In this document: positions 25,201 to 61,385 of the stretch, in pieces | Layout of the letters: every line of letters starts with the position of its first letter | Numbering within the stretch: position 1 is the stretch's first letter | Origin: Notamacropus eugenii | Lineage: Eukaryota; Chordata; Mammalia; Diprotodontia; Macropodidae | Direction of reading: 5' to 3' | Assembly: GCF_028372415.1 (NCBI RefSeq) | Contig: NC_092878.1 | Coordinates: 2,011,501 to 2,075,500 of the forward strand | Length of the DNA stretch: 64,000 bases | The notes under the pieces: generated by a model | Databases searched by the model: none | Told to the model about the DNA's origin: nothing | What the model saw: the letters and a program-made list of their open reading frames with translations, nothing else | Made by a program: the position numbers and the translations under genes

Positions 25201-25569
25201 TTATTTTGCTTCTCTTATTGCTAAAGCTAACATTTCTAGAACAAAATTAAATAACAATGGGCATCCTTGTTTCACCCCTGATCTTACTGGGAAGGATTCT
25301 AGCTTATCCTCGCTACAGATAATGCTTGTTGATGGTTTTGGATAGATACTACTTTTTATTTTAAGAGAAGCTCCATTTATTCCCATGCTCTCTAGTGTTT
25401 TTAATAGGAATGGGTGCTGTATTGTATCAAAAGTTTTTTCTGCATCTATTGAGATAATTATATGATTGCTGTTGGTTTTGTTATTGATATGGTCAATTAT
25501 GCTAATAGTTTTCCTAACAGTGAACCAGCCCTGCATTCCTGATATAAATTCCACCTGGTCATGGTGCAT
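25201..25569 (-). pseudogene. L1 ORF2 reverse transcriptase fragment
   Basis: A 122-codon open piece holds [20 protein letters not shown] and [19 protein letters not shown], the fingers/palm blocks of L1 reverse transcriptase. It ends before the FADD motif, which is degraded downstream. Confidence 0.9.
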
Positions 25570-26621
25570 TATTCTGGTGATAAATTGCTGTAAGCTTTTT
25601 GCTAATATTTTGTTTAAAATTTTTGTATTAACATTTATTAGGTTAATTAATCTATAATTTTCTTTCTCTGTTTCATCCTTCCTGATTTAGGTATTAGTAC
25701 CATATTTGTGTCAAAAAAGGAATTTAGTAGGATGCCACCTATTTTTCCAAATAGTTTATATAATATTGGAATTAACTGTTCACTAAATGTTTGGCAGAAT
25801 TCACCTTGTAAATCCACCTGGCCCTGAAAATATTTTTCTTAGAGAATTCATTGATGGCTTGTTCAATTTCTTTTTTCTAAAGTGGGGTTAAGTATTTTGT
25901 TTCCTCTTCTGTTGATCTGGGCAATTTATACTTTTGTAAATATTGTTAACATTTCACTTAGATTGTCAGATTTATTGGCATACAGTCAAGCAAAATAGTT
26001 CCTAATCATCGCTTAACCAAAAGTTTCATCGTTTTTTTCACAAAACCAGCTCTTAGTTTTATTACTTTAAAAAGTTTTCTTAGTTTCAATTTTATTAATC
26101 TCTCCTTTGAGTTTCAGAATTTTGTTCAATTGGGGGTTTTTACTTTGTTCTTTTTCTAGCTTTTTAAATTGTATACCCAATTCATTGATCTGCTTTTTCT
26201 CTATTTTATTCATGTGAACATTTATTTAGAGATAAATAATTTCCTCTAAGTATTGCTTTGGCTGCATCCCATGAATTTCGGTATGCTGTCTCATTACTGA
26301 CTTTGTTGTTTGACTCACTCATTCTTTAGGATTATTTAGTTTCAAAGAGACTTTTAATCTATCTTCCCATGACTCTATATTACATGTAATTTTTTATTGC
26401 ATCATCATCTAAAAACGATGTGTTTAATATTTCTGCCTTTCTGAATCTGAATGTAAGGTTTTTATGCCCTGACACATGGTCAATTTTTGTGCAGGTATCA
26501 TGGACCACTGAGAAAAAAGTATATTCCTTTTTATTCCCAGTTTTCTCCAGAAGTCTACTACATCTAACATTTCTAAAATTCTATTCACCTCCTTAACTTC
26601 TTGTTTACTTTCTGGTTAGAT

Positions 26622-26969
26622 TTATCTAGTCCTGAGAGGGGGAAGTTGAGGTCCCCTACTAGTACAGTTTTTGCTATTTCTTCCTATAATTAACAAATTC
26701 TCCTCTAAGAATTTGGATGCTGTACCACTTGGTGCATATATGTTTAGTATTGTTATTACTTCATTGTCTATGGGACCTTTCAGCAAAATGTAGTTTTCTT
26801 CCTTGTCTCTTTCAATTAGATTTTTGCTTTTGTCTTGTCTGAGATCAGGACTGCTGCCCCTGTTTTGTTTTGTTTTTTTTACTTCAGCTGAAGCATAATA
26901 TATTCTGCTCCAGCCTTTTACTTTTACTCTGTGTGTCTCTGCTTGAAATGTGTTTCTTGTAAACAACAT
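26622..26969 (-). pseudogene. L1 ORF2 endonuclease fragment
   Basis: The translation contains AETHRVKVKGWSRIYYASAE, NLIERDKEENYILLKGPIDN and ILNIYAPSG, all typical of the APE-type endonuclease of L1 ORF2p. Frame breaks separate it from the reverse transcriptase piece. Confidence 0.88.
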
Positions 26970-29344
26970 AATGCAGGATTCTGGTTTTTAATCCACTCTT
27001 CTATCTGCTTCTGTTCATCCCATTCACATTCAGTTATGATTACTGTATATTTCCCTCCATCTTCTTTTTTTCTTGTTTACACTTTTCTCTCTCATTTCAC
27101 CCTGTCCCTCCTCACTAGTGTTTTGCTTCTGATCACCACCTCCATCCTATCCTCCCACCCTTTCTTTTCCCCTTCTCCTCCTACTTCCCTATAGGGTAAA
27201 ACAGACTTGTCTACCTAGCTAAGTATTGCCAAATCCAATAAGAGTAAGGTTTAAACAATGTTCACCCCCCTTCTTCCTTTGCCACTACTATAATAGACCT
27301 TTCATGTAATATAATTTTACCCCATTATGCCTCCCCCTTTCCTCTTCTCCCAGTACAATATTTTACTCCTTAATTTTTTTATCATCACATCAAAGTCAAC
27401 TTAGATCCCCACCCTCTAAATATACCCCTTCTAACTTCCCTAGTAGAGATACAGTTTTTGAGAGTTACAAGTATCATCTTCCCATGTTGGGATGGAAACC
27501 TCATCGAATACCATGGTTTTGTTTATTTGTTTGTTTGTTTATCTTTTTGTGTTTTTCTTGAGCCTTGTATCTGAAGATCAAATATTCTGTTCACCTTTGG
27601 TCTTTCCATCAGGAAAGTTCGAAAGTCCCCTATCTGAGTGAATGTCCATCTTTTACCCTGGAAGATTATGCTCAGTTTTGCTGGATAGTTGATTCTTGCT
27701 TGTAATCCAAGCTCCTTTGCTTTTCTGGAGGATCATATTTCAAGCCTTCAGATCCTTTTAATGTAGCAGCTGCTAAGTTCCATGCAATCCTGACTGGTTC
27801 CTTGATATTTGAATTGTTTCTTTCTGGCTGTTTGAAGTATTTTCTCCTTGACCTGACAGTTCTGGATTTTGGCAACAATATTCCTTGGGGTTTTCATTTT
27901 ATGATCCCTTTCAGGAGGTGATCAGCTGTTTCTTTCAATGACTACTTTACCCTCTGGTTCAGGGATATCAGGTCATTTTCCTTGATAATGTCTTGAAAGA
28001 TGCTGTCCACGTTTGTTTTTTTGATCATGGCTTCCAAGTAGTCCAATAATTCTTAAATTACCTCTTCTGGATCTATTTTCCAGTGAGGTATTTCACATTT
28101 TCTTCTATGTTGCCATTCTTTTGATTTTGTTTGACTGATTCCTGATGTCTCATGGAGTCATTAGCTTGTACTTGTCCAATTCTATTTTTAAAGAAATTAT
28201 TTTTCTTCAGTTAGTTTTTACACCTCCTTTTCCATTTGGCCAATTCTACTTTTAAAGGAGTTTGTTTTCTTCAGTGCATTTTCCCCCCATTTTGCCAATT
28301 CTATTTTTAAGGAATTACTTATCTTCAATTTTTGCACTTTTCCCAAGCTGTTGACTCTTTTTCATATTTCTCTTGCACAACTCTCATTTCATTCCCCAAT
28401 TTTTCTTCTACCTCTCTTACTTGATTTTAAAAATTCTTTCTAACTCTTCTAAAAGAACTTCTTGGCCTTGAGACCAATTCATATTTCCCTTTGAAGCTTC
28501 ACATGTACACATTTTAACATTGTCCTCTTCCACATTTGTGTTTGGATCTTCCCTATAGCCACAGTAACTTTCTATGGTCAGAGCTCTTTTTTTGGTTTTT
28601 GCTCATTTTAAAAGTTGAGCTCTGCTCCTGAGACAGGGGGCACTGTCCGAAGTTTCTTGCACAGGGATCTGGTCACTGGTTTTCTACACCAGGGCCTCTG
28701 GGGTTGGAAGCTTGCCCACTGTACTAAGGTGACCCAGCCTAGTCACGCATGTTGTGTCCTAGGTTACAGGGCTGGCAGTTTGCCTGCTGTGCTGGGGTTG
28801 GAGTCCTCACAGCTGGCCTGTTGTACTATTGGCCTGCAAAGTCAGGACCATGGAGCCTCAGGTGCTGATATGTACAGTGTCTGAGAGCCTCCTGCTCGTT
28901 TCCCCAGACACCGTCTGCATTGAGCTCCATTCCCCTTTACCCAAGTGAGACAGACATTTCCTGAAGTTTTTCTATGTTATCTTGGGCTAGAAAATTATTT
29001 TATTCTCTCTTTTGTGGATTCTGTTGCTCCAAAATTCTTGCAGAAGCTTAATTTCAAATTGTTTCTGAGGGGCACTGAGGAGAGCTCAGGCAACTTCCTG
29101 GCTTCTCTCTGCCATCTTGGTTCTGCACTCATAATTCACATTTTTTAAGTAAAATTTACTACTTTCTCATCAAAGCTACTCATTTTCCTTTCAAATCTTC
29201 CCTTCAGAGCTGTCATTTCATTTTTTCTCTTTCTTCACTTCTTCTAGGTATTCATGTATTACTTATGGAAAACCTACTTTTTTCCTTTGAATCCTGTTTG
29301 CAGTTTTTATGAAAGTGAATTTGTATACTGATGGGCACTTTTTG

Positions 29345-29990
29345 GATTTACTTTTTAAAAAATAGTTCAACAAATATTTTTAAAGTTAATCTATCTTCCC
29401 ATTACTCCCTTTCCCACCAACTCTGCAAAAAATAATCTGAAAAAAATCCCTCTTAATAGTCTAGAAAAATAAATTCCCACATGAGCCATGTCCAAAAATA
29501 TATTTCTTTTACATTTCAAGTTCATCACCTGTGTCAGAACATGAGTGATGCATTTCCTATTCATTCCTTTAGAAGTGTACTTAATCATTGTGTAGATCAG
29601 AATTCTAAAGTCTTTCTAAGTCGTTTTTCTGTTATCATAGTGTAAATCATTCTATTTCTGCTCATTTCACTCTGCACCAAGAGGTCAGTTTCCTCTGATA
29701 TAGTCCATTTCACCACTTTTATGGCACAATAATATTCCACTACATTCACATACCACAATTTTTTTTGGCCATTCCTCAATAGGATACCTTTTTCGTTTTC
29801 AATTTTTGGCTACCACAAAGAATTGATATAACTATTTTTGTACACAGAGATCTTTTTCCTTGATTTCTTTGAATATTATAATGGATTCAAAGGATATTAA
29901 GTTTAGCAACTTTCTGGACATAATTCCAAACAATTATGAGTTGATTTACCATATCACGGTCTTTAGTTCTGGGACTGGGGTTTGGTGCCA
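29345..29990 (-). mobile_element. L1 3' end (minus)
   Basis: It contains CTGCTCATTTCACTCTGCAC, CACAATAATATTCCACTACA and CCATTCCTCAATAGGATACC. It sits just upstream of the 6-kb L1 and is a separate, older copy. Confidence 0.68.
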
Positions 29991-30736
29991 CAGTCAGGTT
30001 CTGTTGAATGAGGTGGTTGGCCTTCTTTGGTTTTACCCTGGTTCTTACATTGACTTCTACCTCCTAAGATTAATCTCACTTGATCTTTGAGGTTTAGTGC
30101 TAGTTTTAGGGAGAGGGAGAATATGTCCGAGAGATATGAGATAAGGAAGAGAAGAGGGAGCTCAAAGCAAATGACCTCAATTTTTTTTTCACAAATTATG
30201 ACATGAAGTTCTCTGCTGAGAGGGTGAGAGGAAGAGCTGCTATGGGAGGCTTGAGGAGAAATAAGATTTGAAACTACAACTATAGAGAGTGGGAAAGTGA
30301 GTACCTTAGAGAATAAAATGATTCACCTGCTGCAGTGAGGGTCCAGTTGAGAGAGATTATGGATTATTTGTAGTGAACACAGTCAGCTCGCTGGAATGAC
30401 TTCTTCCAGCTCCTTTCAACAAGGAGTAAGCAAACAAGAGCAAAGGGGGTAGACAGTAGGAATAATCCAAGGTTAGGGCTTCCCATGTGAGAATCAAGTA
30501 GGCAGAAAGGGAAAGAGATGTGAGAGTAGAGAACAGTACAATGAACTATTAACTAGAAGACTGAGCTTTCAAAAGGAATAAAATTAAATTGGAGTCGAAG
30601 TGACAGCCAGGGAGAATGCTAAGTGATGAAGGGACTGGAGTTCCTCAAAAAATAAGTTCAGGAATGGTAAGGTAAAGGAAGAGAAGATGTAAGGTTCTGA
30701 TCTGATAAAAAAAAAATTGGAGTTATTAATTGTTGA
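29991..30736. other. Intergenic, purine-rich, unclassified
   Basis: G/A-rich sequence with no open frame of note. Similar sequence continues after the provirus (32,200-32,690), so the provirus may sit inside an older unclassified repeat. Confidence 0.4.
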
Positions 30737-30783
30737 ACTGGAACACTACTGGGTGACAATAAGATACTGGAACACTACTGGGT
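30737..30783 (+). repeat. 29-bp tandem duplication at the provirus insertion site
   Basis: A 29-bp unit (30,737-30,765) is followed by 18 bp of a second identical copy (30,766-30,783). The missing 11 bp of that second copy continue after the provirus (32,030-32,040). The tandem pair therefore predates the insertion, which landed in copy two. Confidence 0.9.
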
Positions 30784-31395
30784 TGCTGGGGATGGAAGCT
30801 CAATTCCATGTGGACAGTCTCGGGCGGGTAAAGGTGGGAACTTCTAAATCTTAGAGTTCTCATGAGGCCCCCCATAAACACCAGGGAATCGAGGAGTGAG
30901 ACCGAGCAATCTCGTGTATTTCTACCTCTTCCCGTGAGAAACGTGATGGGAGAGAGCTCTCCCCGCCCTCGAGATTGTCCCGGATCTGGGCACACCTATT
31001 GTTATCTAACAGGCACGGTATTCAGGTGCAAACTATGCGGCTGGAGAGCTTAATTAGGATCAGGAAAGCCTGAAAGCGCTCTTAGCGCGGGAGGGGCGCG
31101 GACAGGACAGAAGGCTCCGTTTTTCCTCTCTTCGCTCTCCCCTCCCCCTCTCTCCCCACTTACACTTCTGCTTCCAATCTCTTATTGTAAGATCTTTGCC
31201 TCCTTGGGAGATTCCTCGCTCCCTCCTAAGGAAGAATTCCCCCTGCACTTGTAACCAGGACCCTGAATAAAAGCCTAACCCTTGTTCGACTCCGTAAAGT
31301 CTCTTCTCTCATACGTTTATCCGGTTTGGCCAGCCGAAGACCTGCGATACAGGTAAGGTAAGACTCGGGTAGCCCACAGGCCTCTAGGCCTGGCA
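30784..31395 (+). repeat. Endogenous retrovirus 5' LTR (612 bp)
   Basis: It starts TGCTGGGG and ends GGCA, two bases before the primer-binding site. AATAAA at 31,266-31,271 is the expected poly(A) signal at the end of R. The downstream part (about 31,290-31,395) is U5-like. A consensus splice donor (CAG|GTAAGG, at 31,352|31,353) lies in U5. I could not place a clear TATA box: the left U3 copy has CTTCTAAAT where the inverted copy keeps CTTATAAAT, but that spot is too far upstream to be the obvious core promoter. Confidence 0.88.
31266..31271 (+). promoter_or_regulatory. LTR poly(A) signal
   Basis: AATAAA inside the LTR, followed by AGCC and a T/C-rich stretch, at the place expected near the R/U5 border. 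Confidence 0.6.
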
Positions 31396-31397
31396 GT

Positions 31398-31415
31398 TGG
31401 CGCCCGAACAGGGAC
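31398..31415 (+). promoter_or_regulatory. Retroviral primer-binding site, tRNA-Lys(3) type
   Basis: TGGCGCCCGAACAGGGAC lies two bases after the LTR end. This 18-mer is complementary to the 3' end of tRNA-Lys3, the primer used by several betaretroviruses and lentiviruses. It supports the LTR boundary and the sense of the element. Confidence 0.93.
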
Positions 31416-31504
31416 AGGAGCGCAGATATCCTGGGTGGTTGGGAACACCCGGAAGGCTGTGAAAGACACGAGTCCCGAATCCTAGATTCGGAAGGAGAGA
31501 AAGA

Positions 31505-31510
31505 GTGAGT
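31505..31510 (+). promoter_or_regulatory. Candidate splice donor in the retroviral leader
   Basis: GTGAGT preceded by AAAGA, between the primer-binding site and the gag start, where a major splice donor is usual. No acceptor or env remains in this copy. Confidence 0.35.
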
Positions 31511-31541
31511 AGCTTCCCACACCCATGGGAAAAGGGCAGGG

Positions 31542-32042
31542 ATGGGGAATCAATTGCCAGTAATAAAGCCAGAGGAACAGGAGGTCTGGGCTGAGATACT
31601 TTACAGGGAATGCAGGGAGGCGGGGGTCACTATAGAGTTAAACGACCTCCGAGAATTTTGTAAAAGGATTTGGAAAGTTTCTCCTTGGCTCGAGCAGACC
31701 GGAATATCAAGAGAAAGATGGGGAGCGGTCGGAGAACAAATGACCGCTTATGAGCAACAATGCCCCGGGGAGCTGGAGGATTTAGATTTCCTGATATTCG
31801 GTGTGATTAAAAGTCTTTTGGAAGGGCCGGAGAGACCAGGGCGGGGAGAGCTCTCTCCCATCACGTTTCTCACGGGAAGAGGCGGAAATACACGAGATTG
31901 CTCGGTCTTACTCCTCGATTCCCTGGTGTTTATGGGGGGCCTCGTGAGAACTCTAAGATTTATAAGTTCCCACCTTTACCCGCCCGAGACTGTCCACATG
32001 GAATTGAGCTTCCATCCCCAGCACTGGGTGACAATAAGATAA
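31542..32042 (+). pseudogene. gag: Truncated gag (matrix region) fused in frame to antisense U3
   Basis: An ATG 126 bp after the primer-binding site opens a 166-codon frame starting Met-Gly, as in myristoylated Gag proteins. The first about 98 codons look like a betaretroviral matrix domain: a charged helical region with spaced Trp residues. At 31,838 the sequence switches to inverted U3, yet the frame stays open for about 60 more codons and stops just past the provirus, within the duplicated target sequence. Capsid, nucleocapsid and all of pol are missing. The last part is antisense LTR and not a viral protein domain. The matrix call rests on position, the Met-Gly start and overall character, not on an alignment. 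Confidence 0.75.
31838..32023 (-). repeat. Inverted copy of the first 186 bp of U3
   Basis: This is the reverse complement of 30,784-30,969 with five differences, ending in CA directly before the target duplication. It stands where a direct 3' LTR should be. The junction with gag at 31,837/31,838 shows at most two or three bases of ambiguity. Confidence 0.93.
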
Positions 32043-32053
32043 AAGGTGTGAGG

Positions 32054-32195
32054 GCAGCTATGTGGTACAGTAGACAGAGCACTGGTCCTGGAGTCAGGAG
32101 AACCTGAGTTCAAATCCAGCCTCAGACACTTGACTCTTACCAGCTTTGTGACCCTGGGCAAGCCATTTAAACCCCTCCGCCCCCCAAAAAAGGTC
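32054..32195 (+). mobile_element. tRNA-derived SINE
   Basis: It starts GGCAGCTATGTGGTACAGTA, with an A-box/B-box-like region (GAGTTCAAATCCAGCCTCAG) and the tail GTGACCCTGGGCAAGCCATT, then a C/A-rich end. It lies 30 bp after the provirus. Confidence 0.75.
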
Positions 32196-32199
32196 AAGT

Positions 32200-33230
32200 G
32201 TGTGACCATTTCTGAGTGGAGATTTAGGCATTCTAATGCCCAATATTCCAAGATTAGAGTGCCATCAGTATTGAAAGCCCCTAATGTATAAGGGCAGGAG
32301 TGTGGATAGACAGGAAAACAGGTACTAAATTTGGGAAATGAGGGAGAATGTTCTGAGGGTCCACAGATAACTGCTACTAGAATCTTATATGGGTTATAAA
32401 TTTGAATGGAGTGAACCTCAGAAGAGGAAAGGCTGCTGAGTTGAGAGTCTAGGGCCTCATGGGGGAGAAAGGAGTATTCCAGCTTCCTCCAAGAAGCAGA
32501 ATTAGGAAGTATTAAGGAAAGTATACTCAGTACCTAAAGAGTTGGCAGATCTGGGCATTAAGGATTAAGGAGGGGTACGGTTTACTCTTACATAGTTCTA
32601 ACTCATCCCAGGGATTAGGAGACATACAGGAGGAATGAGTTTGTTAGTCATAAAGGGACAGTCTGGGAAGAGGCCATTTGGACCTCTTCATACCCTGTGG
32701 TCTCTACTGGTGATTCTCAGTGCCTCAGTTCTACCTCTTGGGGTCTCTGTTCCACCTTGAAACTCCATGGTTTGCTTTGTTGGGGACTGAAGGAAAACAC
32801 TGATAAAGTCAGTAGTTGAATGAAAGGAGACATTTCCTTTGCAGGATTTCTCTAAGGTAAATACCCATAACAATGAGATATTTTGAATTTCTTGGCATCC
32901 TACTTCTCTTTTGTATCAGTCCAGAGGGCTAGCTTCTCTGCTAAGTGTAAAGAAACTACCTGGCACAGTCACCACAAGAGCCGAATCATTTCATGGAGAG
33001 AGCAGAGAAAAGATATAGAAAAATTCAAGTTGTATAATGCAAGAAAGTCACACTAAGAGCCAAGATTCTTGACTGGACAGCACAAGCTTGAACAAGGCCC
33101 CCACAATGTTGGAGCTGGAGCTGTGTGATCCAGCTGCCCTCTGTTCTCAATAACACTGTCATCATCTAATTGAGTAATGTGAATTTACATTCTACTTGAG
33201 TAGCACGTCATAGTCATCTGATCTGTTGTA
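32200..33230. other. Intergenic, nothing assigned
   Basis: Purine-rich at first, then mixed. No gene or named repeat recognised. Confidence 0.4.
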
Positions 33231-33232
33231 TG

Positions 33233-33305
33233 GTCTCTCTCTCTCTCTCTCATCATATATACATACATATATATACATATATATGTATGTATATATATGT
33301 ATATC
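33233..33305 (+). repeat. (TC)n followed by an AT-rich palindrome
   Basis: A TC run (33,233-33,250) adjoins alternating purine-pyrimidine sequence. Arms of about 20 bp (ATACATACATATATAT / ATATATATGTATGTAT) are separated by two bases. Confidence 0.85.
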
Positions 33306-33861
33306 ATCCACTCATTTTGATGTGTTCCAAATGGAGGACAGGTGACGTTGGAGTATTGTGTGTGAAGTTCTTAATTCCAGGCTAAGAAATATTCTAAATA
33401 ATCAAACTAATAAAATTTTATCTCCCTGTCATATTTGTTTTCTAAAGCTGTCTCTCTATATACTCCTCGTCCCCCCCTCCCCTCCATCACTAAAGCCCCT
33501 ACAGCCTCTGAGTGTATAACTGCTATCCCAACAAGATTGACTACATACCTTGCTACCCTCACACTCTCAATCAGCTCTCCAGAAGCTGAATCTTGGCAAA
33601 TGACACTGAAAAAGGCTCTATCCATTCACTACAGTGTGGTATGAATTCTTGGCTCAAAGCCATTTCACCTACAAAGAACTGCACATGGTGGGGTAGTTGC
33701 TAGATAAGCCTGAGTCCTTTCTGTCTTTATTTTCACTAGATTGTAGCTCAAATGGAGACTTCTGTCTCATCTCAGTTTCACAGAGCCTGGTGAAATAAAA
33801 GGTTGGAGAGTCATGGAATAAGGCATGAGAGAGGCAAATGAGTCAAAGTCAATATTTGTGA

Positions 33862-33934
33862 GGAGCCGTTAGGTGGCGCATGATTAGAGCACTAGCCTGG
33901 AGTCAGGAGGCCCTGAGTTCAAATCCGGCCTCAG

Positions 33935-33937
<3 letters not shown>
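33862..33937 (+). mobile_element. tRNA-derived SINE, truncated into a CA microsatellite
   Basis: GCCGTTAGGTGGCGCATGAT to GTTCAAATCCGGCCTCAGAC matches the 5' half of the tRNA-derived SINE. It then passes directly into (CA)n, which seems to have expanded from the SINE's CAGACA. Confidence 0.7.

Positions 33938-33995
<58 letters not shown>
33938..33995 (+). repeat. (CA)n microsatellite
   Basis: A pure CA run of about 58 bp, adjoining the truncated SINE. Confidence 0.97.
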
Positions 33996-33998
<3 letters not shown>

Positions 33999-34912
33999 TT
34001 ATTATAGTAAATGTCAATAACTTAATACTGACTCCTAATCAAGTTCTCGTTCTACTATATTTCTCAGTATACCTTGATTTATACTTCCTTCCGTCTTTGA
34101 ATATGATGATGGCACTAAATGAATCACCATGAATTTTTCCCCATCCCTTGAAGAGGGAATATGGGACTAAATTTACAATCTAAATGGTCTTTCTCGAGAA
34201 CAGTAAGTTATACCGTTGCAGTGGCACAGCAAGTTAGACATTCCTACCTACCCTGCTCTCTATCGCTTCCCCTCTCTTAGTCAATACCGCCAGTGTCACT
34301 GGTGTTATTCATCTCTTATGTAACAGCTTACAAAATAATAAAAGACCAGAAGTAATCAGTATGGACAATTTTATGCCAGTTGTACATTTAATTGAACTTT
34401 TCCAAATTAGAGAACCCAACTCCAAAACGTGAAAATTACTGCCTGTTAAGGTACATTTCATTTTCTCTCCCAAAAGTTTAACACAGTAAAATACTTATAA
34501 ATGAGGAATTCAGTGCACTTTCAATAACTATCTGGCTGATAATAAGGAGACAAAAATGGCTTCCATCCATGAAAAAAGATAGTTCCACAAAAAAGACAGC
34601 CCAACATTTTCAAAATATTAACATTAAATAAATGAGGGTGAGGGGAATAAAGCGCTGCCTTTCCACCACACAGAAACTTTCCTAGACAACTTTGTTTGAA
34701 ACAGGGCTTTGCAACATTTGACATGCCAAGCACAGACTGGCATCTCAGTCACTACTTGACCACCATCTGTAACTTGCACTGCAGTGTTCACTCCTTCCTC
34801 TCCCACCTTACGGGATGCCTCTGCTAGGCCAGCAAAACCTTCCCTTCTACACACGTCCCTCCACTGAGGATCACACCATCTTACTTCCCTCTACCACCAC
34901 CGTACTTAGATC

Positions 34913-34918
34913 TTTATT
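34913..34918 (-). terminator. Candidate AP4E1 poly(A) signal
   Basis: The minus strand reads AATAAA with a GT-rich element shortly downstream. It is the best polyadenylation context found below the AP4E1 stop. Confidence 0.45.
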
Positions 34919-36649
34919 GCCTTTCCTTACATTCATTCCAAACATACATTTGTTGCCACAGTGAAGGGGCCCAGTGTGACTACCAAGAGTGAAGCATGTT
35001 CATACTGCTGAGCGCCTGGCACCATTACTGGCCCAACATTCTCAGCAGTGTCCCTAAACCCAGCATAGAAAGCTGCCTATGCAGCAGTGAGATTGATTCC
35101 ACAAATCCCACATGAAATCAGTCTCATCCTATTATAGTCAAACTGAATAAAATGTACAGAGGATGATCCCTGATTCAGAATTTAAACATTCAATAAAAGT
35201 AAGCATCGTATGCCCTGTTACTGAATACTTTAAAATCTAATTAGTTCTGTTCATAAGTTGTATTTGTAACATTTGGTTTTGAAATCACACATATAAAAAG
35301 AAGTAAGTCTTAAAGCAGAGTTGAAGTGATTAGATTTAGCTGTTCAATGAGGGAAAGCATGTCTCCTATGGAAGAACTCCAAATAGCTCCATCAGCAATG
35401 GTGTGACTGTAGACCTCCCTCTACTCACTGGTTTCTGTGCATTTAGGGTTAGAATTGGAAGCATCCATCCCTTGGCTTTACTCCTGTGGCAACAACTTCT
35501 GGAGCAAGGGAGGGACATACCCCCCTTATAACCAAGGAGAGAAGAAAGGAGCTTGCAGTGTTCCTTCCAAATAAGCCACTTACCTACCCACTTGAGGAGT
35601 ACCCCAAACACTGATCCCAGATGGATTCAAGAGCACAAGCTTACCCTAGGAAGTGGAGGAAGGGATGGAGCCCAAGTTCCCGTATGGCACTCCATGCTTT
35701 TGCACCGTGACAGAGGGATGTTCCTTCTCTATTAATGGCTGCAGCAGCAGCAGAAATAGCATGGAGGGCAGGATAAATATATCACTGACTAGGGCAGGAA
35801 TGGAACAGAGCCTAGGGAGAGGTTGCCATGCCACTGCTGCCTCGTAGCCCAGAAGCAGAATATCATAGCTTTCTCTTCCCTTGCTGAGGGATGGGAGGGA
35901 TGAGTGTAATCGCCCTCATCACAGCAAGGAAGTTCAGAATATCGAAGATTCTTTTGTCCTTTAACACTGTTGCTGTAAGCAGGGTTCTACTACAGGTTTA
36001 AATGAACGGGTCACAATAAAGCATTACTTCAACGAGCAACTTAAAACTGGCGATGAGAAAATACTGCTCGTTGCTGGGAAGGCACACTCGAGCAGAAACA
36101 CAACTAACTCAATCTGTCAGTCTAGGAAAACCCTTTCACATTTTCATCAGCTATGATCAGGTGCTTCTGACTTGAGTGAGTGACCACATAAATTAACTGC
36201 TCACTAATTCATTGCAATCTGTGATTTGACATGGTACTGCTTGAAGAATCTCCATTAAACCGTTTGAAAAATGAGATAACTTCAGAAAGTACATAAGACT
36301 GTAAATACTATCCCAGTTCTTAACATTAATCTACCATTTGAAATTCTGGAAACATTAACTCAGTTTAGCATCAAGTTCCTCTTACTGGTTGAAGCTGCAG
36401 TTCTGACAGTGACTTTCAGAGGCTGCCGGCTACCTACGTAACAGGTGAGGGGAAAAAAGGGCCAGACGTGAGAAAACAGCATCTTCACTGCAGCCCACAA
36501 AGGTCGTCTGCGCCACTGCTACTCAGGCGTGTTCAAAGAGCATCGTGCACCGACGCCATTTTACTCCTAAAGTAACATGACCTTCAACGTCGTAGGTATC
36601 AAATGATGCCGAGATGTTACCATAATGAGGGGTACGCCCAATGAGGGAT

Positions 36650-40500: not shown

Positions 40501-43500
40501 AAAACCATAAGTCTGAAGTTTTTAAAGTTTTGCTTTTTGTTTTCTTTTATGGAATCCTTGGTGATTCTTTCTTCTCTGCCTTCAGATATCCTTCATAAAA
40601 GAATGCTAACCTGAATGGTACATATGAAAAACTGAAAAGAATTGTGAATTTGCCAGAGTTCTATCTTTTTGACTTTCCTTTACAGCTTCCCACATTACCC
40701 AGAACAGGGTTCTGAACACAACAGATACCCAGCGTTATTTTTTCTCGTTGATAATGAATTAAATATTCTATAAGAAGAGATTCTGCCATAAGAATTAGCT
40801 GGATCAAAGAGCACTTAATGAGATAAATGAATTATACATAAAGAGAAAAAGTTGCTGTAAAAGAAAAAGGAACATGAGAAATTTTAGAGTTCAACAAACC
40901 CAGTTAAACTGCTATCCCAAATGATGAGAAATCAATTACCTGATGAAATCCAGTAGTGATAAGGTTACTGAAAATTCTAACTGAATCTGTGGATCCTCTT
41001 CCACCTGATATTTAATAAAACCAGAAAGAGCCTCCTCTGTGAAAGGTTTTTCCATTTGTACCCGCTGCTGGATGCTTTTGGTGCTTTCTGCTTCTATGAC
41101 AGGAAAACAGAAGCCAGGATGCTCAAGGATCTGTAAAGCAACATAACGCTGTGCTGAAAATCTTTGGGAAAAACTATCAACAGAATTAACACGGGATAGC
41201 TGCCATTTTCTTTTTTTGAAAATTGGAAATTTCCCCCTCTACAAACAAAAATAAGCAAGAGAGAATGTTACTGGGATTAAATTCTATAATAAAAATAGTA
41301 ATGTATCAAGGAAAACTGCCCTGAGATTCTAGAACCAGAGGGCAAAATAAATATTCAAGAAATCCACAGAACACCGCCTGAAAGAGATCCAAAAAGAGAA
41401 ACTCCTAGGAACATTGTGGCCAAATTCCAGAGTTCCCAGGTCAAGGAGAAAATATTGCAAGCAGCTAGAAAGAAACAATTCAAGTATTGTGGAAATACAA
41501 TCAGGATAACACAAGATCTAGCAGCCTCTACATTAAGGAATCGAAGGGCATGTAATAGGATATTCCAGAAGTCAAAGGAACTAGGACTAAAACCAAGAAT
41601 CACCTACCCAGCAAAACTGAGTATAATACTTCAGGGGAAAAATTGGTCTTTCAATGAAATAGAGGATTTCCAAATTTTCTTGATGAAAAGACCAGAGCTG
41701 AAAAGAAAATCTGACTTTCAAACACAAGAATGAAGAGAACCATGAAAAGGTGAACAGCAAAGAGAAGTCATAAGGGACTTACTAAAGCTGAACTGTTTAC
41801 ATTCCTACATGGAAAGACAATATTTCTAACTCTTGAAACATTTCAGTATCTGGGTACTGGGTGGGATTACACACACACACATGCACACATGCACACATAC
41901 ATAGAGACAGAGTGCACAGAGTGAATTGAAGAGGATGGGATCATATCTTAAAAAAAAAATGAAATCAAGCAGTGAGAGAGAAATATATTGGGAGGAGAAA
42001 GGGAGAAATTGAATGGGGCAAATTATCTCTCATAAAAGAGGCAAGCAAAAGACTCATTAGTGGAGGGATAAAGAGGGGAGGTGAGAGAAAAACATGAAGT
42101 CTACTCTCATCACATTCCACTAAAGGAAAGAATAAAATGCACACTCATTTTGGTAGGAAAACCTATCTCACAATACAGGAAAGTGGGGGATAAGGGGACA
42201 AGCAGGGTGGGGGGGATGATAGAAGGGAGGGCATGGGGAGGAGAGTGCAATTCGAGGTCGACACTCATGGGGAGGGATAGGATCAAAAGAGAATAGAAGT
42301 AATGGGGGACAGGATAGGATGGAGGGAAATATAGTTAGTCCTATGCAACACAACTATTATGGAAGTCATTTGCAAAACTACACAGATTTGGCCTATATTG
42401 AATTGCTTGCCTTCCAAAGGGAAGGGGTGGAGAGGGAGGGAGGTAAAGAAGGTGGAACTCAAAGTGTTAGGATCAACTGTCAAGTAATGTTCTTGCCACT
42501 AGGAAATAAGAAATACAGGTGAAGGGGTATAGAAAGCTATCTGGCCCTACAGGACAAAAGAGAAGACAGAGACAAGGGCAGAGAGGGATGATAGAAGAGA
42601 GAGCAGATTGGTCATAGGGGCAATTAGAATGCTTGGTGTTTGGGGGGGGGAGGGGATAAAAGGGGAGAAAATTTGTAACCCAAAATTTTGTGAAAATGAA
42701 TGTTAAAAGTTAAATAAATAAATTTAACCAAAAAATAAATAAATAAAATAAATAAATAAATAAAAATAGTAATGCAACTAATTTCTGTAAAAGATTATCA
42801 AGTCTTAGCCAACGGTCTAAGCTATATTCAAAACAAACAAACGAAAAACAACTGCAGCTCCACCTCTCAGCTGGTCCAATATAATCAGCTCTATATTCTA
42901 AATTACTTTGTTGTAACAGAAAGGACACTACTATAGATCACAAAGAATAAACAAAGACACTACCAGTCATTTAATGCAAAGCAATGAATAACCAGATTAG
43001 AAGAAGTGCCCTACATGTACGACTAAGGAAAGCATCAGTATCACTCACATACCTGTCTCTCAGTAAAGTGCCTACTAGGTGTCAGAAACGTTGTTCAGGG
43101 CTTTACAGATATTATGTCATTTGAGCCTCACAACAACCTTGGGAGGTAGGAGCTATCATCATCTCCATTTTACATCTGAGAAAACTGAGGACGAGGTTAC
43201 GTAATTTGCCCAAAGCAACAGTAAATATCTGAGGATAGAAGTGAACTCATATCCTCCCGACTCCAGGTCCAGGGCACTGTGTCAGCGAGCTGCCTCACCC
43301 ACTTGGTGCCTGAAATTCTCAGATTTTTAGTGCATGTTTTGTTCTGTTTCGGCAGGCAGTCAGGTAGAAGATTTTCTGGGTTTTTCATAACAACGGTGGG
43401 GATATCTGAAAGTAACTATTAAAGACATGGCACCAATTTAAAAGTCATTTTAATACTTCTCACTTTTCCCATTAATCTCTTGATTAAGTCATTCACTTCC

Positions 43501-46500
43501 CTAACTGGGTCTCCTGAACTAGAGACAATAAGTGAGTTTCATTTTCTTATAATGTTCTCATTCTCAACTTCTTCAAAGTATGGAAATTACGACCATTCTT
43601 TTCTTTTTTAATTTTCTGTAGAGGAGTAAGAATTGGTGTTGGAATAAGTTTCTGGGCCAGCACTATAGCCAATGAGAAAAATACTAATAAGCAAAAAGCC
43701 TCTCTTCAAAGCTAGAAAAGATGAACCATCACTTTCCTTACCTTGAAATTTTCTGTAGGTGTAATTTCTAAATTCATACTCTTCAGTTCCAAACTGCTCT
43801 TGTTGGCAACCAACCAAACCAGCAATAAGCAGTCATCTTTCCAAATTTTGCAAGAAGATACTTTTAACATTTCATTGTTACAAAGTTCCACTAAATCGGA
43901 ATGTACATGTTCATTTAGCTCTTCTAATAAGGAAGAAGTTAAAGAGATTTCATTAGCAAATGAGGACAGAGTAGGATGAGGAGGGTGAAAAATCTCCATG
44001 CTGTTATCTTCAAACAGAGAAGGGGGAGACAGGCTGCAAGCGGAGAGATTCTCAGCCAAATGGAGTTCAGTGAGTGACTCAGATTTTAAACCCGATTCCA
44101 AAAATTCTGAACCAAGGGAACATTGCTTTAATCCTGTGTCTCCTTTGTCCTGAAAATTGTTCAGATGATCATTATCTTCATAAGGTGCATTTGACAAAGG
44201 ATTGAAAGAAGAGCAGTTAACGTCATGTGCACTGGATACTTCTCTATTTTTGACATCATTAACTTTTGATTTTCTTCGGAACTTGTGAGAGACAGTATCT
44301 GTTTTTCCCAGCTGCAGAAAAAGAAAAAAAGAAACTATGCCACCGCTCGTGAGTTCTGACATATTCTAACAAATTAAAGGCCTAAAATCTAAGAAGGTTC
44401 AAATGAACGATTTCATTGGCCTCGTGAGGGTCTGCACTGCAAAGCAGAAACTGCAAATCACAATACAGAAAACTAATAAGCCCAGAAATTTATTCTTGCA
44501 ACTGCAGAGCTTTGAATAACTTACTAATTTTTTTTTGTTATTTTCAACTATTCAAAATTAGAAGTGAAGCCACAAAGCCAACATTAACCTAACTTGAAGA
44601 TCTCTTGGATTCTGAAGCATTAAGACTCTAAAACTAGACAGTCCAGTGAAGAACTCTACCATAAACTGAAGGAATGGCTGAAATGAACCTTGTGAAGGGG
44701 TATCTTGTGAAGGGTAAGACATGACACTTCTTCCTTACATTTACAATCCTAGTAAAGGACACAGCAGAAGCCAAGTCAGGGATGCAAATCACTAGGTTGT
44801 AGGACACATGAAAAAAAATTCCCAGAATCCAAATGATACCAAAAGGAAAAATAGTTAAATGAGGAGAAGCTATTATAATTACGATTAAAACATTAACTTT
44901 ATCTCTGATTATTTTTTAAAATGTAACACAAAGTATATTAGAAATTGGCATAAAAATCATGCCCAGAGAGAATCCATGTTAAAATAGAAACTAAAACAAA
45001 ATGCAATTAATGCAAATGAAGAATCTAACATTTAAAACACTGAATTGCAAACATAATCAGGAAACACGGTGAAACAATAAAAAAGAGTTGAACTTGAGAG
45101 TAAGGAGACAGGAGCTTGGCCGTGACATTCACTAGTAGTATGAATCACTTAATCTGAAGCCAACAGTGTTCTCAACTATAAACTAGAAATAATGCTTGCA
45201 CTAAGCTACAGCATGACTGTCAGCATACTGAAAACGTTAAAATATTATATGTAAATATAAACTATCCATATGCAACATACATAGAACATATGACACACCT
45301 GGCTCATTCTCAATTCACATCACTAAAGACTTCTCATCACATCCAGCCCCTTCCTCCTTCCTTCAATCATTCCCTCTCTATTAAACTGCTTTTTTTGAAA
45401 TTCAATTTCACTTTATTTTCAGTTCTAAATTCTCCACCTTCTACCTCCCTCCCCCACTTAAGAGAAAGTGAGAAAAATGAAGCCTCCTACAAATAAGTAT
45501 AGTCAAGCAAACAAATCCTATCACGGATGATGTCCAAAAACAAACAACGCTTCAGTCTACATTATGGGTTCATCATCTCTTCTGGAAGTAGACCATGTGT
45601 CATCTCCAGTCCTCTGAGAGGATCATTATACTAATCAGAGCTCCTGGCTCTTTCCAAGCTGTTTATGTTTACTGTGTTATTATTACTGTATACGTTGTTC
45701 TTTACACCGTGGATCAATTCAAACAAGTCTTCCCAGGATTCTCTAGCATCATTCTCATGATTTCTTATAGTATAATGATATTCCATCCAACTCACTGAAC
45801 ATAATTTGTTCAGTCTTTCCCTAACTGATGTCCCCCGATCCCCACTTTCCAATTCTTTGCTACCCAAAAGGAGCTACTACGAACATTTTTTAAATCTATG
45901 ACTCCTTTTCCTATTTCTCTGATCTCTTTGGGACATAGGCCTGGTCTTTACTAGGTCAAAGGGTATATACAAAATTCAATAGTTTTTTGGGTATAGTTCT
46001 AAGTTGCTCTCCACAACAACTGGACCAATTCACAGCTCTATCAATAGTGCATATATGTAGCTGCTTTCACAGTTCCTTCAGCATTTGTCTTTTTCTTTTT
46101 TTCATTTCAGCCAATCTGAAGGATGTGAGGTGCTACCTCACAGTTGTTTTCATTTGCAACTCTCTACTTATTAGTGATTTAGAGTAATTTTTCATAAAGC
46201 TGTTGATAACTTGGATTTTTTTTCTGAAAACTACCTATTCATATTCCTTTTCCATGTATCAACTGAGGAATAATCTTTATTCTTATAAATTTGACTCAGC
46301 TTCCTTTATATTTTAGAAGTGAGGTCTTTATTAGAGAAATTTGATGGGGTTTTTTTCCCATTTACCTGTTTTCTTCTGGTTTTGTTTGAGCAAAAACTTT
46401 TTAATTTTATATTAAAAAATTGTCTTGTGAAATTTTTTAACTCGTTTGGTCATGAACTCTTCCCATATCCAGAGATCAGACAGATAATTTCTTCTATGCT

Positions 46501-58500: not shown

Positions 58501-61385
58501 CTGGCCTGGTTGGTTCTGGGTGCCACATTTTAAGAAAAGCAATCATGAGGTGAAGTGCTCCAAAAAAGGACTCTGAGCCGGAGTCTATGAACCTGTTTTA
58601 ACATTTTGATTTAATCCTATGTGTTTTATTTTATGCATTTAAAAAACATTACTCAGAGAAGGGATCCATCTGATTTACCAGACTGCCAAAGCGAGCCATC
58701 CATAGTGGGGGAAAAAATGCTTACGAAACCCCAGCCCAAAGAAAAGCCATGAGGATAAATGACTGAATGAAAAAACATTTGTTGGGTGCTTACTATCTGA
58801 AATCATTCCTGTTCTCAAGAAAATAATGTTCTAAGGAGGCAGATAATATAGCATACATTCTAATGGGGGGAGATTTCAACTGCAAGTCACACAGAAAAGA
58901 CTGATAGTCCTCGGGATGCGATGGCAAACAGATAGAAATGTACCTTTTATAACAATACTTATATTGATAAAATCACATCTGCTTATGATTTTGAACCATG
59001 TGACAGTGCCAACGACTTGGGTGTCAAAAATTTTATTTTCTTATTCTTTGGTATTTTCTGATTCTGTGGCTGCTGAGGAGGCAAAGACTTCAGATCCTAC
59101 AGAAGCAACAGACAGATTGTACATCCACGGAGGTTTCCTCCAGGAAGATGGCTACAGGAGCTAGGCTGGAAGCAGAACAAGCAGTCTGGGGAGCCCTGGT
59201 GTCCTCAGGACTTTTGAGTTTACCTGCCCTTTGGTAGTAACTGGTGAGTAGTTGTTGAAAGTGGCAGGGAAGATGGGCCCCTTTTCCATAGTGACTGCTT
59301 CCCTCAACGATAAGTACAGGGGGTAGGGCAAGGATTCCAAGGGTCACTGCTCTTCCCAGGGCTCCTCCTGTGTTCAGGGTCCTAAGGTTCAGGGCCTCCA
59401 TCAAGGTCTGAAAGGAGGTGGTGTTTAATGTGTGCTACTAGTGGTCATATGACCTCAAGATTATGCTTTATGATTATTAGTTGAAGGAACTGAAGATGTT
59501 ATAACTGAAGATGTTATGACTGAAGACGTCATGACTGAAGACGTCATGACTGAAGATGTCATGACTGAAGATGTCATGACTGAAGACGTCATGACCTGGG
59601 AAGCAGGACAGCCACCTTCAAAGATATGAAAGGCTGATACTTCAAAAAGGTATTAGACTTGTTCAGCTTGGCCCCAGGGGGCAGAACTGGATGCAGTACG
59701 TTGATATTACAAAAAAGCAAATTTAGCCTTGATTTAAGGGAAAACTTCTGAATGATTAAGACCCCCAAAAGTGAAATGGGCTGCCTCAAGAGGTAGTGAG
59801 CTACCTCCTCCTTCAGTGAAGTTCTTCAGCAAAGGCTGGATGACCACCTGTCAGGGACATTGTGGAAAGAATTTCTGTTTAGGTGTGGGTTGGACTGATT
59901 GGAGTCTGTGAGGTTCCATCCAATTCTGAGATTCTGCATTTACAAGTTACTTTATAATCTGTTCAGCATTTGAGAGCAGGAAAATTTTCGTTTTAAAAGA
60001 TATTCTATTAACAAAGAAGTCTTCGTTTTCGAATAAGCTCTCTAAAGGCACACTATGTGAAGGTATCACTTTGATCCATCTATAAATCATCCTTTGAAAG
60101 ACCAAAAGCTATGAAATGGGGGTCCTAAAAGTGACCAAATGTTCAGCCTGAACAGCTCAAAGCTGCAGCTTCATGGGGTTCTCTTTAACACTTCAATTCC
60201 TTGCTCGCAGTTTCCAAAACCATACAATGTTACACAAGAAATTCAGGTTAGTGGGAGTAGAAGAATCCCCTTCCCCCAAGCCCCTATACTAGACCAAGGG
60301 GATTTCTTTAACAAGATGAGAAGTGAAGGTATAATAAACTAAAATACCTGTGGCAAACCTAAAATACAAGTGAACATCCTTTGTAGCATGCCACACCAAA
60401 GTCACTAAGAAAATAGATACTAGAGAATGGAGAAATTGGGTCTCTTTTCCAAATTATACAGCTATATAAAAATGTTTGAGAATATTTGAAAGGATAGCCC
60501 TATTCTGTTCAGCAAATCACTGTGAAGAACACTGACAGCAGTCGGGTGACTTCAACTTGGAAGTCTCCCTTATGGCCCCAGAGAGTCAGTATCTCTGGTT
60601 CCTAAGTTCTGAGACTGCCAAACCAACTAAAATGAATCAAAGACCATGAAAAGCCATTTTAGCCATGTTATCATCCTTTTGGACTATATGGTTCATGACT
60701 AGATTCAAGACAAAGGTCCTTTTCACATCCAGAGTACGGACATAAAGTGGCCTCTCAATGACTTGAATGAAAGCATGTTTCGCAAGATGACTATTTAATT
60801 CACGTGGTAAGAGGGTGTGGCTTTTAGAAAGAATTCTAGATGCCTAACAATATCTTTAATGGATATTACTATGGCAAAGATCCTGAAGTATGATGGACCT
60901 ATAATTTCCTCACTTGTTGGGTAACATGAAGCCTGTTAAGAAAATTTCAATTTAGATGATCCAAAAAGAAACTCTTAAATTACACTTGATTTTAGAGTGA
61001 TTTTTACAAAAATGAGTATGGAGTTATTTGGGAAAACAGAAAAATAAGAGGTCACAAGAAGCTGGTCTCTTTACGGTGTCTGATAAGAACAGAAGTAGGA
61101 ACAAAAAGAATAAAAACTGCTAAAAATGTTTACAAGAAAACTAAAGAGGAAATGACAAATAAACAATGAGCAAATCAAAATTGATGCAATAATCAATTCA
61201 ATAGTTGAAAATATTTACCAAACATTTGCTTTGTGCCAGAAACCATGCTAAATGCTAGGAATAAATAAATCAATTATTAGGCTAGTAATCTAATATTTAA
61301 ATGAATATTTAAAGTTTAATAGAAACCAGGGGAAAAATGTATACTAAAACAGTCTATCTGAAGCTACACTAACACACACACACGT

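Follow-up and report, generated by a model that had tools for sequence, protein, structure and literature searches.

A canonical provirus or solo LTR has one U3 and one U5 outer end. In the 64,000-nt stretch of Notamacropus eugenii DNA analyzed here (hereafter the window), one insertion has U3 tips at both of its outer ends. How can a provirus come to be joined to its host in this way? The reading that we favor, with a probability of about 0.7, is that the insertion is a defective provirus that arose through a strand-switching error in reverse transcription and was then integrated normally, and that the same kind of error has recurred in its endogenous retrovirus (ERV) family.

The element measures 1240 nt between its target-site duplications (Table 1). 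Its left outer end is TGCTGGGG and its right outer end is CCCCAGCA, and both are exact U3 tips. An earlier note on this DNA had described 186-bp terminal inverted repeats, and alignment of the two arms bears this out: 181 of 186 positions are identical without gaps, leaving five mismatches, and the blastn E value is 3e-88 in a search within the window. The same search returned the inverted arm alone, with no second direct LTR and no right-hand U5 end. The earlier outline was likewise accurate in giving a full left LTR from TG at 30,784, a right end with CA at 32,023, and CTGGGT on both sides (6/6). Exact U3 tips and a 6-bp duplication agree with its proposal that integrase made the insertion by joining a U3 end on each side. 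Among the five sites that differ between the arms are positions 80, 140, and 141, all three of which vary in the family (68 blast hits). The arms may therefore have come from two different templates, and the 5/186 differences give no age because three of the five sites are family-variable.

Table 1. Features of the two-U3 element and its immediate flanks (positions in the window)
Feature	Positions	Strand	Basis
Host flank with 29-bp tandem repeat (first copy full, second copy 18 nt)	30737..30783	+	Repeat search
Left target-site duplication, CTGGGT	30778..30783	+	Direct comparison of flanks
Complete LTR, 612 nt, TGCTGGGG...GGCA	30784..31395	+	Tips as in seven other family LTR loci
Left arm, U3 positions 1-186	30784..30969	+	Inverted-repeat alignment
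AATAAA within LTR	31266..31271	+	Read from sequence
Primer binding site, tRNA-Lys type (presumed)	31398..31415	+	Read directly; also in L010 with one change
gag 5' part (matrix region), open, MGNQLPV..., ended by junction	31542..31837	+	Pfam Gag_p10 PF02337
Junction microhomology AGGGCGGG, common to ordinary gag and inverted U3	31838..31845	+	Alignment to L009, L010, L011
Right arm, U3 positions 1-186 reverse-complemented, ending CA at host	31838..32023	-	Inverted-repeat alignment
Right target-site duplication, CTGGGT	32024..32029	+	Direct comparison of flanks

The insertion lies in the second copy of the 29-bp tandem repeat of the left flank, a repeat absent from the earlier note, and a SINE-like stretch is located at ∼32050, to the right of the element. 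Farther away, the window holds LINE-1 remnants at 25201-26969 (-) and 41416-41733 (+), with Pfam matches to RVT_1 (25204-25569) and to an L1 dsRBD-like domain (41416-41730); a Pfam scan of 26625-26969 gave no match. A 216-aa open frame at 43712-44362 (-) looks by eye like an adaptor-subunit exon, which we take to resemble AP-4 epsilon, and it found no support in Pfam or PDB. A 15-bp tandem array of seven copies with 94% matches occupies 59489-59595.

The element is a betaretrovirus-like (class II) ERV, as judged from its 612-nt LTR and from three marks of that class: a betaretroviral gag (matrix) fragment, a tRNA-Lys primer binding site, and a 6-bp duplication, which is the target duplication size for betaretroviruses. 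The Lys type of the primer binding site is our assumption, based on its motif. A scan of 31542-31835 matched Gag_p10 (PF02337) with an E value of 3.6e-6 and 27.2 bits, compared with a curated cut-off of 23.9, and pol is absent. MMTV primes with Lys-3 (PMC12789967).

Relatives of the LTR were sought in the whole genome (3.445 Gb, 254 contigs). The best 40 of 4044 candidates were scored, with identities of 95-100%, and seven of the 39 other scored loci (L002 to L008) were fetched. All seven begin with TGCTGGGG and finish with GGCA, as does the window LTR. Five are solo LTRs with U3 and U5 ends, with a 6/6 duplication at L003, L006, L007, and L008 and a 5/6 duplication at L004. The remaining two, L002 and L005, are 3' LTRs in which the polypurine tract (PPT) immediately precedes TG, and the outer TG in this family can therefore be taken as a PPT-defined U3 tip. 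A scan of viral contigs for the U3 start gave no match.

The inner junction, which we call junction 1, was compared with ordinary 5' ends of the family. The leader and gag of the window element (31396-31837) are 96.6-97.3% identical to those of L009, L010, and L011, the last from its ninth base. Past the breakpoint, gag in these three loci reads GAGAGACC-AGGGCGGG-ATTGG and the inverted U3 reads CTCG-AGGGCGGG-GAGAG, and the window sequence is GAGAGACC-AGGGCGGG-GAGAG. Because AGGGCGGG is present in both gag and inverted U3, the switch could have taken place anywhere within this 8-nt perfect match. The earlier note had set the switch at gag position 31,837. A gag/U3 switch it is, but the exact base does not stand, since 31838-31845 is also ordinary gag.

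Are such matches more frequent than expected? When the L009 leader/gag piece is compared with the inverted window LTR, a fraction of 1.7e-4 of all position pairs has a match of at least 8 nt. For L009, 13 LTR/gag matches of at least 8 nt were observed; 30 shuffles of the LTR averaged 8.6, and a reversed-LTR control gave 17. A longest match of at least 11 nt was reached in five of the 30 shuffles and in the reversed control too. LTR/gag matches of junction length thus occur at about chance expectation; they are present by chance and were then used. Junction 1 is thus only one among many sites at which a switch could have occurred, which leaves its re-use unexplained.

Autointegration, in which a viral tip attacks viral DNA and a short stretch of the target is duplicated, was considered and rejected as the source of this junction, which lies near U3 position 186 rather than at the tip and coincides with the 8-nt homology.

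The position of the outer ends bears on whether the structure could have formed in the host chromosome after integration, by inversion, gene conversion, a replication template switch, or opposite insertions into neighboring 29-bp repeats followed by deletion. A tandem repeat does flank the site, and short inverted gag/U3 homologies exist. However, inversion between gag and a 3' LTR would put U5 at the outer end, and a host fold-back would run on into the left flank. Moreover, the inverted U3 ends exactly at its tip beside the duplicated hexamer, both in the window and at three other loci with 6/6 duplications (described below). We therefore consider rearrangement after integration very unlikely; the earlier note had called an inversion less likely on the same ground. 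Inverted repeats are also a known class of artefact, and a fold-back chimera formed during assembly or library preparation might produce them. In the window element, however, the arms disagree at five sites, the junction connects U3 with gag, and beyond the inverted arm the sequence passes into right-hand host DNA that bears a duplication of its own; comparable structures, with different junctions, are present elsewhere in the genome. Such an error is also very unlikely, and is the least probable of the explanations considered here.

Junction 1 is found at a second locus, in another LTR subfamily. The junction-1 pattern, with up to three mismatches allowed, occurs at seven places compared with eight in a reversed control, and is informative only through the later alignments. 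One of these matches, L013 (C23:83933498; also sliced as L022), aligned with the window element over its whole structure, from the LTR and leader through gag to the same base and then the inverted U3 from position 186. A 201-base query across junction 1 was fully spanned only by the window element and L013 among the best 40 of 1689 candidates, and the count of two loci rests on this query and the three-mismatch pattern. The L013 LTR is 96% identical to that of the ordinary locus L016 but 84% identical to the window LTR, and the L016 LTR and gag contain the same two complementary 8-mers as junction 1. Segmental duplication was rejected as the origin of the second locus, in that the L013 flanks are unlike the window flanks (28001-30783 and 32025-35000).

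The search for other copies of the LTR and for insertions with U3 at both ends, which had been suggested earlier, thus yielded solo LTRs and also four further complete two-U3 cases. The five complete insertions include four with a 6/6 duplication and one with 4/6. The latter is L013 (1239 nt), where TTTTGA/ATTTTA agree at four of six bases in place, and at six of six only on the assumption of one inserted base. The others are L032 (1433 nt, CTACAC, 6/6), L072 (1425 nt, GTTCTC, 6/6), and L044 (2102 nt, ACCATA, 6/6), in which a short forward U3 stretch at the right end snaps back into inverted U3. The proposal that the window element is a one-off event falls with junction 1 at L013/L022 and with the two-U3 insertions L032, L044, and L072. 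In the four elements measured, the right U3 arm is 97.3% (window), 96.8% (L013), 95.7% (L032), and 98.7% (L044) identical to the left U3 arm of the same element. As yardsticks, the LTRs of L009/L005, a probable pair, are 96.3% identical and those of the L071 pair 98.9%.

A second junction, between a gag purine tract and a U3 CT tract, occurs in the complete insertions L032 and L072. These junction-2 tracts hold the longest exact gag/inverted-LTR matches, which are 11 nt in L009 and 14 and 11 nt in L018. Among the best 40 of 2334 candidates for a query across the L032 junction, L032 and L017 matched its whole length, and L064 and L072 matched 191 of its 201 bases. The junction-2 pattern occurs at seven places and at none in the control; two of the seven are ordinary gag, and the rest are L032, L064, L072, L092, and L093. 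Right ends related to junction 2 are present in L064, L092, and L017. Two of these loci have a right U3 tip and junction 2 but begin within the LTR. L064 (C14:420257690) has its left end near LTR position 436, possibly the RNA 5' end, and a possible 5-base duplication, ATACC. The left end of L092 (C1:126300413) is truncated near position 337. In L093, a copy made up of LTR and gag, the sequence makes a short excursion into inverted LTR at junction 2.

Other members of the family are rearranged in related ways. In L017 (C14:94872910 region; GCTTAT, 6/6) and L015 (C2:330494974 region; GAAGAA, 6/6), the outer ends are U3 and U5 and antisense gag lies between two LTR parts; L015 additionally carries an inverted LTR stretch, 393-245. 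In L026 (C23:189496871 region), the 5' LTR is replaced by inverted LTR from 612 to 93, followed by TCGACTC and 15 A residues and then by LTR from position 476. Its left outer end is a U5 tip, and a search of slices L061 and L094 for its right end was negative; L026 could be a two-U5 insertion. By its letters, TCGACTC with 15 A looks like the end of R followed by a poly(A) tail, which, if so, supports an RNA template.

The presence of one junction at more than one locus raises another explanation, namely a nonautonomous element with U3 terminal inverted repeats that was mobilized and copied as a unit. The same structure does occur at several loci: junction 1 is at two loci, junction 2 is in L032 and L072, the right ends of L064 and L092 are related to junction 2, and the same letters lie inside L093. 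Common descent was examined with a maximum-likelihood tree of 65 LTRs, for which the constraint groups were set by junction, with the LTR identities already known at that point. On this tree, five changes are required to account for the five two-U3 rows. A single clade of the window element and L013 (junction 1) is rejected with an AU p value of 1.1e-7, and a single clade of L032 and L072 (junction 2) with 4.7e-72, such that neither tested junction pair traces to a single founder. L013, L072, L016, and L093 form one four-row clade whose inner order is open. The separate origins of L013 and L072 therefore rest on their differing junctions together with the tree. Among L072, L064, and L092, which belong to the old subfamily, only the L072 LTR is complete enough for the tree, and copying among these three is thus possible, although L064 has five G residues at junction 2 compared with four in L072 and L092. 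Copying is also hard to reconcile with the greater similarity of the L013 LTR to that of an ordinary locus than to the window LTR, and such an element would not have the 3' R needed for ordinary reverse transcription. On the criterion of the earlier note, recurrence of the junction might have marked a copied nonautonomous element, but common descent is rejected by the tree. We give copying as a unit a slim chance. Two-U3 elements that share a junction look like separate accidents rather than copies, and because common descent is rejected for each junction, recurrence at microhomologies fits better.

How frequent are these accidents? Inverted LTR sequence was present within 1.5 kb on either side at three of 37 gag-only matches to the junction-1 query (L026, L032, and L044), and two of these loci, L032 and L044, are two-U3 insertions. 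Another 13 gag-only loci, taken from the L032-junction query, showed no inverted LTR. The combined rate is 2/50 gag-bearing loci (∼1 in 25), in a sample drawn from the gags that best match the two queries, where U3 ends >1.5 kb past the gag match escape detection.

We propose the following route to the window element. Plus-strand DNA would start at the PPT, which would fix the exact U3 tip, and would pause after ∼186 nt. In plus-sense gag, AGGGCGGG is the complement of the nascent 3' end, ...CCCGCCCT, which may have paired with it. The paired strand would then be extended as a minus strand through gag, the primer binding site, U5, R, and U3 to a second PPT-defined U3 tip, whether or not the usual R jump took place. 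The DNA produced would have U3 tips at both ends, as the element does, and integrase would join both with a 6-bp duplication. Accidents of this type would have occurred repeatedly in the ERV family, and four of the five complete cases lie at two stretches of LTR/gag complementarity. An origin before integration with template switching as the leading mechanism, as proposed earlier, is supported by these data.

Several observations speak for this route. The gag junctions that were dissected (1 and 2) join plus-sense U3 to antisense gag through plus-strand complementarity between U3 and gag. The outer tips are exact, as PPT priming would give. Priming of a minus strand in plus-sense gag by a partial U3 plus strand is the simplest history. 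L015 and L017, which pass from U3 into antisense gag and back into the LTR, read naturally as the outcome expected of a nascent U3 strand that leaves and returns. The U3 snap-back of L044 and the structure of L026 do not fit the simplest form of the mechanism. Which template served, RNA or DNA, and which way the switch ran are both inferred.

The switch could also have run in the opposite direction, with a plus strand growing in gag that switched or folded back onto plus-strand U3 DNA and copied it to its 5' tip. This would yield an identical window product through the same 8-nt pairing, and copying off a PPT-defined 5' end also gives an exact U3 tip. However, L015 and L017 are simpler as excursions of a nascent U3 strand, and the left end of L064 inside the LTR is not expected. 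We regard this direction as possible, though unlikely. A further scheme has two viral DNAs that each supply one U3 end and whose broken inner ends are joined by host microhomology-mediated repair. There is microhomology at the junction, and integrase can accept two U3 ends in vitro. Nevertheless, two cDNAs and two breaks would be required, at the same pair of sites every time, and identical junctions recur across different subfamilies. Joining of two cDNAs therefore appears decidedly unlikely. Returning to priming by a nascent U3 strand, we see about even odds that it reflects a standing side pathway of betaretrovirus-like reverse transcription, in which a second minus strand is started by incomplete plus-strand strong-stop DNA on the 5' part of the plus-sense genome at a few complementary LTR/gag sites, and two PPT-defined U3 ends are integrated with normal fidelity, at ∼1/25 of the sampled gag loci.

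Two-U3 insertions with an exact duplication provide natural evidence that integrase in the cell can complete its reaction with two U3 ends, so that nothing beyond the U3 tip is needed on either side of the integration. Their recurrence makes a rare intermediate, a plus strand that primes on a plus-sense template, countable and mappable genome-wide. Such insertions would probably escape LTR annotation that relies on direct repeats.

The window element shares the LTR, Lys-type primer binding site, Gag_p10, TG...CA ends, and 6-bp duplication of ordinary class II ERV proviruses and solo LTRs. Those are joined to the host by one U3 and one U5, whereas the window element lacks a 3' LTR and is joined by a U3 end on either side. 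A search of the literature on inverted-LTR, two-U3, and rearranged proviruses, in which older retrovirology is thinly covered, gave no two-U3 provirus with intact duplications among the matches listed. Circular MLV DNA with an inverted segment was reportedly described by Shoemaker in 1980. These circles are unintegrated, and the usual explanation is autointegration, in which integrase attacks its own DNA. They share an inverted viral segment with the window element, whose inner junction differs in that it falls at an 8-nt homology and involves no viral tip. Twin priming of LINE-1 is a target-primed mechanism without LTR or integrase. It is nonetheless similar in that an inverted piece arises from reverse transcription and is flanked by target duplications (PMC2837659). 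In aberrant integrations with one end joined by host enzymes, larger flanking duplications, deletions, or inversions are reported (PMC5041404); abnormal joining of viral ends is common to both, and the window element differs by its exact 6-bp duplication. HIV-1 proviruses rearranged by inversion or with asymmetric LTRs are likewise integrated errors of reverse transcription, put down to misalignment or a switch of template (PMC9278108). The HIV-1 rearrangements described in the excerpt of that source are genome inversions and 3' LTR deletions, and not replacement of an outer U5 by a second U3. Set beside these systems, the window element is a real, well-formed, and unusual product of reverse transcription and integration that is recurrent in its family.
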